55,528 nucleotides of DNA from Candidatus Planktophila sp. (lineage in GTDB: Bacteria > Actinomycetota > Actinomycetes > Nanopelagicales > Nanopelagicaceae). Numbering within the stretch: position 1 is the first letter of the stretch; each line of letters begins with the position of its first letter. The DNA lies in the NCBI GenBank assembly GCA_017858325.1, contig JAFMBT010000009.1, forward strand, positions 1 through 55,528, read 5' to 3'. Shown here in pieces: positions 39,694-44,663 of the stretch. The position numbers and the translations under genes were made by a program. Below the pieces are notes generated by a model that searched no databases, was not told the origin of the DNA, and saw only the letters and a program-made list of their open reading frames with translations.

Positions 39694-40902
39694 TTATGCC
39701 TTCTTTCCAAAGTGTGGGTTCTCCCAGATAACGCTTCCGCCCATGCCAAGACCAATACACATGGTGGTAAGTCCGTAGCGAACATCAGGTTTTTCTTCAA
39801 AGGTGCGAGCAAGGTTAAGCATTAAACGAATTCCTGATGAAGCTAAAGGATGACCGACAGCAATAGCGCCACCATAAGGGTTTACGCGGGGATCATCATC
39901 TGCAATTCCAAAGTGATCTAAGAAGGCAAGTACCTGAATTGCAAAGGCTTCGTTGACTTCAAAGGCTCCGATATCTTCGATCGATAGACCGGCATTAGCA
40001 AGAGCCTTGATTGTTGCTGGCACTGGGCCGTATCCCATCACTTCAGGTTCAACTCCAGCGAATGCAAATGTCACCAGACGAGCCTTAACTGGAAGACCAA
40101 GAGCAATTGCTTTCTCTTCGCTAGCAAGAATCGCTGCAGTTGCACCATCATTAAGGCCTGATGAGTTTCCGGCAGTAACGCGACCAGCTGGACGGAAAGG
40201 TGTCTTCAGTGTGGCAAGGCCTTCCAGGGTTGTCGTAGGACGTGGTGGCTCATCCACTGTTGCAATACCCCACCCAAGATCGGCACTTCGCGCAGCAGTT
40301 GGAATGAGATCGCGTTGGATCTTTCCCTCCTGGTATGCCTTAGCTGTCTTCATCTGTGAGGCCAAGGCAAATGCATCTGATCGCTCCTTTGTTAAATGTG
40401 GAAAGCGATCATGTAAACGCTCTGCTGTTGCACCCATGGCTAACGCATCTTGTTCAACAATGCGCTCTGCCAAAAAACGAGGGTTGGGATCAAGACCATC
40501 ACCGATCGGATGATTACCCATATGTTCAACGCCGCCTGCAATTGCAATCTCATTTGCACCCATTGCAATGGATGCAGCAAGTGTGGTCACTGATGTCATC
40601 GCGCCAGCACACCAACGATCTACTGAATAACCAGGAACTGTATTGGGAAGACCAGCAAGCAGCGATGCACTTCGCCCCAAGTTCATTCCTTGATCACCGG
40701 TTTGGGTCGCAGCAGCAATTGCCACATCATCGATCTGATCAAGAGGTAATTGTGGGTTGCGCTCTAGTAAGCCGCGCATAGCTCGCACCATTAAGTCATC
40801 GGCGCGGGTACCGGCATAGAGTGAGCCAGCTTTTCCAAAGGGGGTTCTGACAGCATCGACTAGAACAACGGAGGTGAGACGGTCGCGTGAGTATGTAGCC
40901 AT
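39694..40902 (-). CDS. fadA: Acetyl-CoA C-acyltransferase (thiolase)
   Basis: Beta-oxidation thiolase, 402 aa, cleaving 3-ketoacyl-CoA to acetyl-CoA. The nucleophilic Cys98 is in DRWCAGAM; the C-terminal set is NEAFAIQVLAFLDHFG, GGAIAVGHPLASSGIR with its histidine, and MCIGLGMGGS with the second cysteine. AGAGGG lies 8 nt before the ATG, so this operon, unlike many here, has a leader. It pairs with fadB downstream to form the two-subunit complex. Confidence 0.95.
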   Translation of the reverse strand: MATYSRDRLTSVVLVDAVRTPFGKAGSLYAGTRADDLMVRAMRGLLERNPQLPLDQIDDVAIAAATQTGDQGMNLGRSASLLAGLPNTVPGYSVDRWCAGAMTSVTTLAASIAMGANEIAIAGGVEHMGNHPIGDGLDPNPRFLAERIVEQDALAMGATAERLHDRFPHLTKERSDAFALASQMKTAKAYQEGKIQRDLIPTAARSADLGWGIATVDEPPRPTTTLEGLATLKTPFRPAGRVTAGNSSGLNDGATAAILASEEKAIALGLPVKARLVTFAFAGVEPEVMGYGPVPATIKALANAGLSIEDIGAFEVNEAFAIQVLAFLDHFGIADDDPRVNPYGGAIAVGHPLASSGIRLMLNLARTFEEKPDVRYGLTTMCIGLGMGGSVIWENPHFGKKA

Positions 40903-40984: not shown

Positions 40985-41014
40985 GAATTACGCAACACTA
41001 ATGTTGCGTAATTC
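40985..41014. promoter_or_regulatory. Perfect 13-bp inverted repeat upstream of the iron transporter
   Basis: GAATTACGCAACA (40985-40997) and TGTTGCGTAATTC (41002-41014) with a CTAA centre. No U-run on either side. The centre is about 39 bp before the fbpA start codon, i.e. over the -35 region of a leaderless fbpA transcript. It could serve the divergent fadA gene as well. The arms do not fit Fur, DtxR/IdeR or Zur consensus boxes as I know them. Confidence 0.7.
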
Positions 41015-41026
41015 AGTGGGCTGGAT

Positions 41027-41032
41027 TAAGGT
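41027..41032 (+). promoter_or_regulatory. -10 element of fbpA (leaderless type)
   Basis: TAAGGT, 6 nt before the ATG at 41039. Its AAGG could alternatively act as a weak ribosome site for a leadered transcript. Confidence 0.4.
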
Positions 41033-41038
41033 CAGAGT

Positions 41039-42049
41039 ATGCGCTCCTCGATTGCTTCCTCGCTCGTATTGGCCACCGCTGTACTGCTCTCTGGATGTTC
41101 AAGCTCCACCGAGCAGGAGAGTAGCCCGACAGAGCTCACGATCTACTCAGGCCGTTCGCAAGAGTTCATCGCCCCATTCCTTGCCGAATGGGAGAAGAAG
41201 AGCGGAATCGCTCTGAAGATTCGTTATGCAGATTCAGCCGAATTAGCGGCCCAGATTCGCGAAGAAGGATCTAACTCTCCAGCCGATATTTTTCTCGCTC
41301 AAGATGCTGGTTCCCTAGGAGCCGTATCGCTAGCTGGACTCTTTACGACGTTGGGTGATGAAGTAGGCGCTGAAATTCAACCTCAATACATTGCAGCCGA
41401 TCGCAGCTGGATTGGAGTCACAGGACGCGCTCGCGTCTTTGCATACAACCCACGGTTACTGACCGACCTACCTCAATCAATTACCGATCTTGCAAACCCT
41501 GTATACAAATCTAAGTTGGGAATTGCGCCTACCAACTCTTCGTTTCAGGCATTTGTTACCGCGCTCATCAATGCAAAGGGTGAGGACTTTACACAGAAGT
41601 GGTTGGAATCCTTAGTCAAGAACGATGTCCAGATATTTGCAAAGAACAGCGCAATTGTGGAAGCAATCGACTCTGGCAAAATCTCGATCGGGCTGGTAAA
41701 TCACTATTACACATGGGAAGTCAGCCAAGGGTTAGGCCGAAAAATTAGCGCCGAAAATGGATTCTTTACAAGCGGGGACTTAGGAAACATGGTTAACGTC
41801 TCCGGTGCTGGAATTCTAAAGTCCAGTAAGAAATATGCCGCAGCTGAAGATCTCATTAACTATCTGACCTCACAGGTCGTGCAGAGTAAATTCGTGGCTG
41901 AGACTCATGAATACTCACTCATCGCTGATCAAATCTCACCTGCTGGCCTGCCATCTCTGAGCCAGATCGGCGCTCCATCCGTTGACCTAGAAAGTCTTGC
42001 TGAGATTCAAAAGACGCAAGAACTCTTGATCAAGGTTGGACTTCTCTAG
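41039..42049 (+). CDS. fbpA: Ferric iron ABC transporter, substrate-binding lipoprotein
   Basis: Extracellular solute-binding lipoprotein, 336 aa. A signal peptide ends in the lipobox LLSGC with Cys20 as the lipid anchor. The mature part follows the FbpA pattern: LTIYSGRSQEFIAPFL, the DIFLAQDAGSLG segment, and the paired tyrosines in NHYYTW near residue 223 that bind ferric ion in this family. First gene of a three-gene importer. Iron is by family; a related cation or complex is possible. Confidence 0.88.
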   Translation: MRSSIASSLVLATAVLLSGCSSSTEQESSPTELTIYSGRSQEFIAPFLAEWEKKSGIALKIRYADSAELAAQIREEGSNSPADIFLAQDAGSLGAVSLAGLFTTLGDEVGAEIQPQYIAADRSWIGVTGRARVFAYNPRLLTDLPQSITDLANPVYKSKLGIAPTNSSFQAFVTALINAKGEDFTQKWLESLVKNDVQIFAKNSAIVEAIDSGKISIGLVNHYYTWEVSQGLGRKISAENGFFTSGDLGNMVNVSGAGILKSSKKYAAAEDLINYLTSQVVQSKFVAETHEYSLIADQISPAGLPSLSQIGAPSVDLESLAEIQKTQELLIKVGLL

Positions 42050-42054
42050 AGTTC

Positions 42055-43629
42055 ATGAGTGACACATTAACTAGATCAGGGAGAACTAGCTCTCGCCTAG
42101 TTGCTCTTGCATCAGCAGTTCTTCTCGTAACTTTCATTCCCCTCTTCTACCTCGTAATTCGAGCTGCAGAGAAGCCGGTGGGAGCGATTGCAGATTTGTT
42201 GCTGCGACCGAGAACGGTGGAGATCGTAGCCACGACGGCGATCATTCTGGTGGCAGTAGTCCTCATTAATGTTCTACTTGGAACTCTGATAGCAGCGGGA
42301 ATTCATTTTGTGCGCTTGCCATATGCGCATTTGCTCATCATTCCCATGATCTTGCCACTTGCCATTCCCTCATATGTATTTACATATACCTGGATTGCGC
42401 TGGTGCCAGATTTATCCGGAGTTGTGGCTGCCATATTTATATTGGTGTTGACCACGCTACCGTACATGATGCTTTCCATCGTAATCGCGCTGCGACGCTT
42501 AGATTCTGGACTTATTGAAGTCGCGCGAACACTGGGTCTTTCTAAAACCGCGATTCTTTTTCGAGTGGTTACTCCTCAGATAAAGGGAGCGATCAGTGCA
42601 GGGTCACTCTTATCGGGACTCTATGTGCTCAGTGACTTTGGAGCTGTCTCACTCCTTAATGTGACAACCCTTACCGTTTCAATTCAAAATCTTTTTAAAT
42701 CAACCTATGACCGAAGCGGTGCGGCAATTATGGCGCTAGTCCTCGTTGCCGCCTCCACCGTCTTTATCGCTTTAGAATCTGGACTCAAGCGCAGGCAAGC
42801 AAATGAGAGTGCGAGCAGACGTACTGGTACAAAACATCTGCGCATTAGTAACTCTTCGGCGAGAATTTCTCTCTTGGTTCTTGTGAGCGCCTATACATTT
42901 GTGGGAGTAATCGCACCAATTTCAGTTTTACTCTCAAGGTTTTTCTCCAATAGCGCACCCATCCAATGGGCTGAGTTATTTTCTGCTGGGCTATCTGCGG
43001 TAAGCATTGCAGCAGCTGGTGCTGGTCTTGCTCTTCTCTTCTCAATCCCTTTGGGAGCCCTTGTTGCGCAAGGATCGAGCAGATTTGCACTCTTTTCCGA
43101 GAAGGCAGTTTTGGTCTCGCATGCTCTGCCGGGCGTTGTTATTGGCTTAGCTCTTGTCTCACTTGGCTCGAAACTTGGTCCTCTCTATCAATCGGTGGCA
43201 CTTCTTGCATTTGCTTACGCAATTTTGTTCTTAGCAAAATCTGTGGCAGCAATGAATTACTCTCTGCAGCTCATTTCTCCATCAGTGAAAGAGGCAGCTG
43301 CTACTTTGGGAAAAAGTAAGGGTGAGATCGCTCGAACAATCACGTTCCCTATCGCATTTCCTAGTATTGCCTTAGGCACGCTATTGGTCTTTCTCACCGC
43401 TATGAAAGAGTTGCCCGCAACTCTTATGCTTCGCCCTATTGGAATGGAAACTCTTGCTACACAGGTGTGGAGCTATGCTGCAGTGAGTAAATTTAATGAG
43501 GCGGCACCCTATGCGTTACTCTTGATCATCATTGCTGCGGTTCCAACTTTCTTACTAAGCCTTCCGCGAGAAGCTCTCGATAGACCAAGAAACAGTGTTC
43601 GTGACTTACAGTTAGGAGAATCTCGATGA
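42055..43629 (+). CDS. fbpB: Ferric iron ABC transporter, permease
   Basis: Fused two-domain permease, 524 aa, with about twelve hydrophobic helices in two halves (about 1-255 and 270-515). Each half carries an EAA-type coupling loop, VARTLGLSKTAILFRVVTPQ near residue 156 and EAAATLGKSKGEIARTITFP near residue 415. This duplicated layout is typical of FbpB. It starts 5 nt after fbpA and overlaps fbpC by ATGA. Confidence 0.93.
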   Translation: MSDTLTRSGRTSSRLVALASAVLLVTFIPLFYLVIRAAEKPVGAIADLLLRPRTVEIVATTAIILVAVVLINVLLGTLIAAGIHFVRLPYAHLLIIPMILPLAIPSYVFTYTWIALVPDLSGVVAAIFILVLTTLPYMMLSIVIALRRLDSGLIEVARTLGLSKTAILFRVVTPQIKGAISAGSLLSGLYVLSDFGAVSLLNVTTLTVSIQNLFKSTYDRSGAAIMALVLVAASTVFIALESGLKRRQANESASRRTGTKHLRISNSSARISLLVLVSAYTFVGVIAPISVLLSRFFSNSAPIQWAELFSAGLSAVSIAAAGAGLALLFSIPLGALVAQGSSRFALFSEKAVLVSHALPGVVIGLALVSLGSKLGPLYQSVALLAFAYAILFLAKSVAAMNYSLQLISPSVKEAAATLGKSKGEIARTITFPIAFPSIALGTLLVFLTAMKELPATLMLRPIGMETLATQVWSYAAVSKFNEAAPYALLLIIIAAVPTFLLSLPREALDRPRNSVRDLQLGESR

Positions 43630-44663
43630 CATCACTCGAGGTCTCTCATCTAGATGTGAAGTTTGGAAATCGAAAGGTAATCTCGGATCTTTCTTTCTCT
43701 CTGAGTTCAGGTGAAATAGCATCCCTCTTAGGCCCTTCAGGTTGCGGGAAGACCACTCTTCTGCGAGCTATTGCCGGCTTACTCACACCAAGTGGTGGCA
43801 CGATTCGTTTGGGTACGCAATTAGTCGGACTTTCATCACTCTCCTTAGCTCCACATAAGCGATCGACAGGATATGTTCCACAACAAGGCGCTCTCTTTCC
43901 ACATCTGAACGTTGCCCGCAATATTGCTTTTGGTATCGATAAGAAGAAGTTCAGCCGTTCCCAGATCGAGAGCCGAACCTTCGAGATGCTTGAACTCATT
44001 GGTATGTCAGGTTATGAGCAGGTGATGCCGACTGAGTTATCTGGTGGGCAGCAAACGCGTGTTGCGCTGGCCAGAGCGCTAGCGATTAAGCCGAAGATGG
44101 TCTTACTTGATGAACCATTTTCAGCTCTTGATGCACATTTAAGAAATGAATTGCGCGCCGATGTTATTGCACTTCTTCGCAGCCTAGGTGCCACTGCAAT
44201 TTTAGTTACCCATGATCGTGAGGAAGCGTTGGTGGCATCAGATAAAGTGTTCTTGATGCGTGATGGTGCTATCGCTCAGTATGGATCGCCAGAAGATGTA
44301 TACGAGAATCCAACCTCACCGGAGATTGCAGTCAGTACCGGGGACGCCATGATTCTTCCCGCTCGACAGAGCATGGATGGAACAGTCAGCTATCCACTTA
44401 ATACAATTGTAAATAATGCTGCCGGAAGTAAGGGCTATGTCGTTATTCGCCCAGAAGAGATAGTTGTTTCTCAGCAGAGTTCAGTTGGAATGAAAGCAAA
44501 ACTTCTGGCACTCGATTACTTTGGCCACGATGCGATGCTCACATTTTCTTTAGCTCACACATCAGATTTGATTAAAGTCAGAGTTGCTGGTCATGCGGGT
44601 TATTTAGTGGGAGAGACTCTCTCCCTTAGCCACGAAGGTCCGATTCGATTTTTTAAAGAGTAA
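43626..44663 (+). CDS. fbpC: Ferric iron ABC transporter, ATP-binding protein
   Basis: ATPase of the importer, 345 aa: Walker A GPSGCGKTT near residue 36, Q-loop PQQGALFPHL, signature LSGGQQTRVALARAL near residue 139, Walker B MVLLDEPFSALD and switch histidine VTHDRE. A C-terminal TOBE-like domain (about 245-340) is typical of the FbpC/PotA class. The gene ends 5 bp from the convergent ribonuclease D gene; I see no terminator between them. Confidence 0.94.
   Translation: MTSLEVSHLDVKFGNRKVISDLSFSLSSGEIASLLGPSGCGKTTLLRAIAGLLTPSGGTIRLGTQLVGLSSLSLAPHKRSTGYVPQQGALFPHLNVARNIAFGIDKKKFSRSQIESRTFEMLELIGMSGYEQVMPTELSGGQQTRVALARALAIKPKMVLLDEPFSALDAHLRNELRADVIALLRSLGATAILVTHDREEALVASDKVFLMRDGAIAQYGSPEDVYENPTSPEIAVSTGDAMILPARQSMDGTVSYPLNTIVNNAAGSKGYVVIRPEEIVVSQQSSVGMKAKLLALDYFGHDAMLTFSLAHTSDLIKVRVAGHAGYLVGETLSLSHEGPIRFFKE

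Follow-up and report, generated by a model that had tools for sequence, protein, structure and literature searches.

The window (the whole stretch of DNA that was analysed, 55.5 kb) encodes an apparent ferric-iron ABC importer, fbpABC, flanked by the divergent gene fadA and by an RNase D-like exonuclease gene. The closest solved structures to FbpA are ferric-iron-binding proteins (E = 8.2e-67 for the best), and nothing among the NCBIfam models is above cut-off, the nearest (phosphonate or thiamine type) being sub-threshold. Between fadA and fbpA lies an inverted repeat whose arms are 100% complementary (Table 1), exactly at the coordinates given by the original prediction, which had described a perfect 13-bp dyad with a 4-nt centre and judged it very unlikely to arise by chance. 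No other inverted repeat in the window combines perfect 13-bp arms with a loop of 0-10 nt, repeats of this kind were found in 0 of 40 simulated windows (first-order Markov, equal length), and the 1.34-Mb genome (32 contigs) contains a single copy with up to three mismatches allowed. The centre of the dyad (40999.5) is 39.5 bp 5' of the fbpA ATG, where about 39 bp had been estimated.

Table 1. Features of the importer locus in the window
Feature	Position	Strand	Basis or remark
fadA	39694..40902	-	divergent from fbpA
Perfect 13-bp inverted repeat GAATTACGCAACA-CTAA-TGTTGCGTAATTC, 4-nt centre	40985..41014	.	candidate SufR operator of the iron importer
Conserved core TTACGCAAC-N6-GTTGCGTAA	40988..41011	.	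encloses CAAC-N6-GTTG at 40993-41006
TTGCGT, proposed -35 hexamer, within right arm of dyad	41004..41009	+	motif and spacing
TAAGGT, proposed -10 hexamer (TANNNT)	41027..41032	+	17 bp after TTGCGT, 6 nt before ATG
fbpA, ferric-iron-binding lipoprotein of ABC importer	41039..42049	+	Pfam; best solved-structure match 7w3w
fbpB, ABC permease	42055..43629	+	Pfam
fbpC, ABC ATPase	43626..44663	+	Pfam

Within the genus, the 20-letter dyad is present with up to three mismatches in 54 of 61 genomes, versus 3 of 61 for a reversed control; it is present in all 21 genomes with a completeness of 90% or more and a contamination of no more than 5%, and the seven genomes with no match are all at most 83% complete. 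There is one copy in 52 of these 54 genomes and two copies in G037 and G040. Directly 3' of the dyad, all 30 fetched genus loci encode either EfeU (22) or FbpA (8), and the same is true of all 19 loci examined across the family Nanopelagicaceae (L224-L242; EfeU in 16, FbpA in 3). EfeU belongs to the FTR1 family (in L010, PF03239 with E = 8.2e-55, and above the NCBIfam EfeU cut-off). The original prediction of an operator-type site linked to iron uptake, to be looked for in related genomes, is thus supported: the dyad precedes two unrelated importers, the FbpA operon and FTR1/EfeU, and is conserved before them instead of being scattered at random sites. In relatives such as L197, efeU is found between the same two neighbours that flank fbpABC in the window, fadA and the RNase D-like exonuclease gene, which indicates that the operator stayed in place while the importer was swapped. 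G037 carries both importers, EfeU and FbpA, with one dyad each, and either dyad departs from the consensus by one mismatch. The complete genome of Candidatus Planktophila versatilis has the dyad in front of EfeU (L111) as well as a sufR site (L206).

Among 394 genomes sampled across the class, a near-perfect dyad (at most one mismatch) was detected in 40 of 41 family members versus 11 of 353 others. The lone family exception, G415, has a two-mismatch dyad before EfeU in the scan at up to three mismatches; at that threshold it yields two matches to the pattern and four to the reversed control, so that its site rests on placement and not on number. The same scan gave three-mismatch matches in G062, G063 and G401, and L304 falls within a reading frame. 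Among the 11 non-family genomes, eight belong to genus g44 and the others are G124, G235 and G206, of which only G206 has an iron importer (EfeU) after the dyad; in G124 and G235 the dyad is beside genes that by eye look unrelated to iron. The eight g44 genomes (L216-L223) share a look-alike conserved site, TTACGCA-N10-TGCGTAA, located in L218 before a geranylgeranyl-reductase-family gene, and this site probably belongs to a different regulator. Since the near-perfect dyad is uncommon outside the family, any wider claim about Actinobacteria is limited to some lineages.

The exact core occurs in at least 119 stretches of a genome contig database of 257 Gb, in which simple arithmetic predicts about four chance matches; among those listed, 85 are before EfeU and 22 before FbpA (107/119). 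Five further listed stretches place the core before iron- or siderophore-type uptake genes, namely genes for a periplasmic-binding protein (L148 and L090), a FecCD permease (L116), FeoB at a distance of about 280 bp (L144), and an ABC ATPase nearest to FecE although below cut-off (L078). Of the rest, L087 is truncated by the contig end, and no iron gene was recognised by eye in L077, L113, L132, L133, L146 and L177. Several database records look mislabelled: those titled Bifidobacterium breve (L097, L120, L127, L135 and L141) and Streptomycetaceae (L088) encode FbpA/FadA like those of Nanopelagicaceae, with 94% identity for FadA in L088.

The layout of the promoter in the window, TTGCGT-17-TAAGGT-6-ATG, is widely maintained. 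Among the exact-core matches listed, a TANNNT motif follows TTGCGT by 17-18 bp in 83 of 85 EfeU promoters and 21 of 22 FbpA promoters, the start codon is 6-7 nt past the -10 box in 82 of 85 and 12 of 22, respectively, and the distance from dyad to efeU is fixed at 27-29 bp in 82 of 85. A position of the dyad over the -35 region, suggested earlier on the condition that the transcript is leaderless, agrees with this arrangement. Judged by motif and spacing, the probable -35 element of the importer promoter, which appears to be leaderless, falls within the operator; the dyad fits the operator of a repressor because its right arm supplies the -35 hexamer 17-18 bp before the -10 box.

The dyad had been described as matching no known box. 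Its core, CAAC-N6-GTTG, is nevertheless the operator printed for SufR (PMC8593673, PMC13421787), a known [4Fe-4S] repressor, and has been given for SufR of Streptomyces avermitilis, with a near match in Corynebacterium glutamicum (PMC11995493). By itself, CAAC-N6-GTTG is matched 25 times in the genome and its reversed control more often, 66 times; the core alone is consequently not specific and is uninformative as a genome scan.

The window's genome encodes a single SufR-like protein (G000:C27:23220-23822, E = 6.4e-22 to TIGR02702), the gene for which heads an operon sufB-sufD-sufC-sufS-sufU whose five genes all score above NCBIfam cut-offs. The protein does not reach the curated cut-off of TIGR02702 (SufR_cyano; 77.6 versus 178.8 bits), which we take to be tuned to cyanobacteria and hence not decisive for an actinobacterial SufR. 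At an E-value of 0.001 the model also matches 12 of 14 named control genomes, including C. glutamicum, E. coli and B. subtilis, and its cut-off is passed in one of the 14. Given the low score and the non-specific model, the name SufR rests on the full-length match, the cysteines and the position in the suf operon. Four cysteines are conserved with the spacing C-X3-C-X12-C-X27-C (in an alignment of 54 proteins, each is shared by 52 or 53 of those that extend over its position), and the combination of a helix-turn-helix, cysteine ligands and encoding together with suf is found in the window's genome; no solved structure was matched to SufR by sequence. SufR-like matches to TIGR02702 were detected in 23 of 31 genus genomes (weakly in G023) and in 22 of 22 others (weakly in G401).

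A dyad with the geometry of the importer site recurs at the start of sufR, its commonest form in the genus being TTACGACAC-N6-GTTGTGAAA. The sufR site of the window's genome, TTACGATAC-N6-GTTGTGAAA, departs from the importer dyad in 4 of the 18 arm letters (for Demequina and Arthrobacter the count is 5-6) and has the GTG start codon inside its right arm; in genera g3, g4, g6 and g7 the site is TTACGCAAC-N6-GTTGTGAAA, with 16 of 18 arm letters in common with the importer dyad. Autoregulation would call for a matching dyad in the sufR promoter, and one is present, with 2-6 of the 18 arm letters differing across lineages. The sufR start codon lies inside its own dyad at L047:2134-2157, and the sufR mRNA would be leaderless should transcription begin at the final G of GTTG, the start reported for S. 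avermitilis, where the SufR site overlaps the -10 element (PMC11995493).

In 53 of 54 sufR loci (with a tie in L210), the stretch most similar to the importer dyad is at the sufR promoter, the exception being L202 (Timonella), in which a better match is found 221 bp before the projected start. For 15 of these 54 loci, hand-picked to represent lineages, the sufR-promoter dyad was the best match in 14 with 61 summed mismatches, while 1000 permuted half-sites achieved at best 13 of 15 lineages with at least 84 summed mismatches, the best of them being close rearrangements of the real half-site, and 14 other spacers (range 0-14) achieved at best 10 of 15 with at least 99.

A degenerate pattern that covers both types of site (at most one mismatch) matches the window's genome at exactly two places, one being the importer dyad and the other the start of sufR. 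The pattern was found in all 59 genus genomes that are at least 85% complete, with two matches in 34, more in 24 and one in 1; matches beyond two per genome total 32, including the second importer of G037, versus 21 for the reversed control. Among the matches listed for this pattern, the 16 loci examined (L246-L261) are all at SufR (9) or EfeU (7). G472 has six SufR-type matches, not two. In G040, a SufR-like site, TTACGAAAC-N6-GTTGCGAAA (L198:2006-2029), lies between an ABC operon and a gene that on inspection by eye resembles an O-acetylhomoserine sulfhydrylase; being found in one genome, it is possibly due to chance.

The absence of a fit to the DtxR/IdeR consensus, noted from the outset, extends to the protein: a search for the DtxR C-terminal domain (PF02742) gave no hit in 31 genus genomes, the control being detected in 11 of 14 named genomes, and a DtxR box was rejected in this genus on both grounds, the missing domain and the different sequence. 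Elsewhere in the family, PF02742 is present in 1 of 20 genomes, G415, in which a DtxR-like box (two mismatches to a DtxR consensus) is located before EfeU, at an offset of 38 bp from the dyad start. Outside the family, DtxR was present in six of six genomes tested that have the exact dyad, and in those six the best DtxR-like box of the locus (2-5 mismatches) is within about 50 bp of the dyad. These six genomes have 11 dyad sites (at most two mismatches), ten of which precede genes of the iron- or siderophore-uptake type (L078 only FecE-like); the eleventh, L297, precedes a gene with no Pfam match. Counter to this pattern, on the short contig L090 a DtxR-like box is absent (best 8 mismatches), and the non-family genome G206 has its dyad before EfeU yet lacks DtxR. 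Retention of DtxR together with a dyad beside a DtxR-like box in G415, Arthrobacter, Timonella and Demequina suggests that dual control by DtxR and SufR may be older in some lineages, and that SufR may act alone in most of Nanopelagicaceae.

The dyad is placed among known operators by its core, and the earlier proposal of an undescribed metal-responsive regulator is not supported: the core fits the operator of SufR, and the genome's own sufR carries a dyad with matching geometry. The regulator is known; what appears to be new is its target, namely iron import where DtxR is lacking. Very probably, the dyad is a SufR operator at which Fe-S-loaded SufR would repress iron import in place of DtxR. 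The dyad, its conservation, its two importer targets, the promoter geometry, the sufR dyad and the lack of any hit to the DtxR C-domain are observed directly at the level of sequence; from them we infer SufR binding, cluster sensing and repression at the importer dyad. SufR is a winged-helix repressor, and its [4Fe-4S]-loaded dimer would bind the dyad, both the CAAC-N6-GTTG core and the arms that extend it, and cover the -35 hexamer in the right arm, turning off the apparently leaderless promoter of the importer, which would be FbpABC in the window's genome and EfeU in most relatives examined. During shortage of iron or of Fe-S clusters, apo-SufR would release the site, allowing expression of both the importer and the suf operon. 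In this lineage, for which no DtxR/IdeR was found, SufR would be the principal regulator of iron uptake. Repression by the cluster-loaded form and release by the apo form are drawn by analogy with SufR elsewhere (PMC8593673, PMC13421787, PMC10848736).

Two Fur-family regulators are encoded in the window's genome and could be iron sensors here. The second (L194, G000:C30:72500-78000, at 2386-2793) adjoins the Fe-S maintenance gene ygfZ; for the neighbour of the first (L193), a guess that it is a zinc transporter was rejected, there being no Pfam match. The dyad might be the operator of such a regulator, for example the Fur protein beside ygfZ, acting also at the sufR promoter; without DtxR, another iron regulator would be expected, and one of the two candidates has an Fe-S gene as its neighbour. 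We consider this unlikely, as the core coincides with the published SufR operator, the sole other site found in the genome is at sufR, where autoregulation predicts it, and none is at either fur gene; the 9-6-9 geometry of the dyad, moreover, presumably differs from that of a Fur box. It is equally improbable that SufR binds the dyad as an activator of the importer, or only modulates it slightly, with iron sensed elsewhere: the importer sites overlap the -35 element and the S. avermitilis site the -10 (PMC11995493), a difference that leaves room for another mode of action, but a dyad containing the -35 hexamer is expected to block polymerase, and the literature presents SufR as a repressor (PMC8593673, PMC13421787).

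Control of the fatty acid degradation gene fadA, with fbpA as a bystander, is hardly credible and was rejected from the position of the dyad in EfeU genomes: although the divergent fadA start is 83 bp from the dyad in the window, the whole efeU gene separates the two in the EfeU genomes examined, the spacing that is fixed (27-29 bp in 82 of 85 listed cases) is that to efeU, and fadA is absent from some of the fetched stretches. An RNA hairpin, terminator or leader structure, into which a perfect 13-bp dyad would fold, is just as implausible, since no T run follows the dyad in the window sequence (the lack of a U-run was noted at the outset) as an intrinsic terminator would require, the dyad is upstream of the -10 box and start codon and so would be outside the importer transcript, and the arms of the sufR site are unequal and overlap a start codon.

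With SufR as the preferred regulator, a broader proposal is somewhat favoured: that SufR is a second actinobacterial regulator of iron uptake, sharing promoters with DtxR in Arthrobacter, Timonella, Demequina and G415, and that Nanopelagicaceae, with few exceptions, lost DtxR and run import on SufR alone, Fe-S status instead of free iron setting uptake, as a convergent counterpart of RirA. These freshwater Actinobacteria are abundant, and if the proposal is true they control iron import via an Fe-S assembly repressor that has few targets in all; it would also be a reason to test SufR at the iron promoters of culturable Actinobacteria.

The published accounts consulted treat SufR as dedicated to suf (PMC8593673, PMC11995493), and a review names sufBCDS, sufR and ftrC as its targets (PMC13421787). 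A sufR mutant of Mycobacterium tuberculosis contains two-fold more intracellular iron, which the authors attribute to Fe-binding proteins (PMC6255865) and which would fit with a limitation of uptake by SufR; a transcriptome of such a mutant is mentioned in PMC10848736. Iron control in Actinobacteria is taken to be by IdeR/DtxR (PMC8464063), and links of DtxR/IdeR to suf expression are in print (PMC6701010, PMC10848736), so that cross-talk is already known, while an iron importer under SufR control was not encountered in the literature covered, which takes in few subscription papers. The ferric-iron ABC importer cg0508-0506 of C. glutamicum is said not to be under DtxR control (PMC2807442).

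Among known systems, the DtxR/IdeR boxes of Actinobacteria are similar in their target genes, and a DtxR-like box is near the dyad in the six DtxR-bearing genomes and in G415, but these boxes differ from the dyad in sequence, and in the genus the DtxR C-domain is at 0 of 31. The SufR operators of cyanobacteria and S. avermitilis have a core and spacing identical to those of the window dyad, and SufR systems share with it a similar dyad at sufR/suf in the same genome and a context of Fe-S and iron; unlike the known sites, the site in the window is perfectly symmetric, extended, located at an iron importer, and over the -35 element instead of the -10. RirA of Alphaproteobacteria is likewise a [4Fe-4S] repressor of iron uptake (PMC6748827, PMC10510648), but it belongs to the Rrf2 protein family and recognises the IRO box, and its likeness to SufR is in role only.
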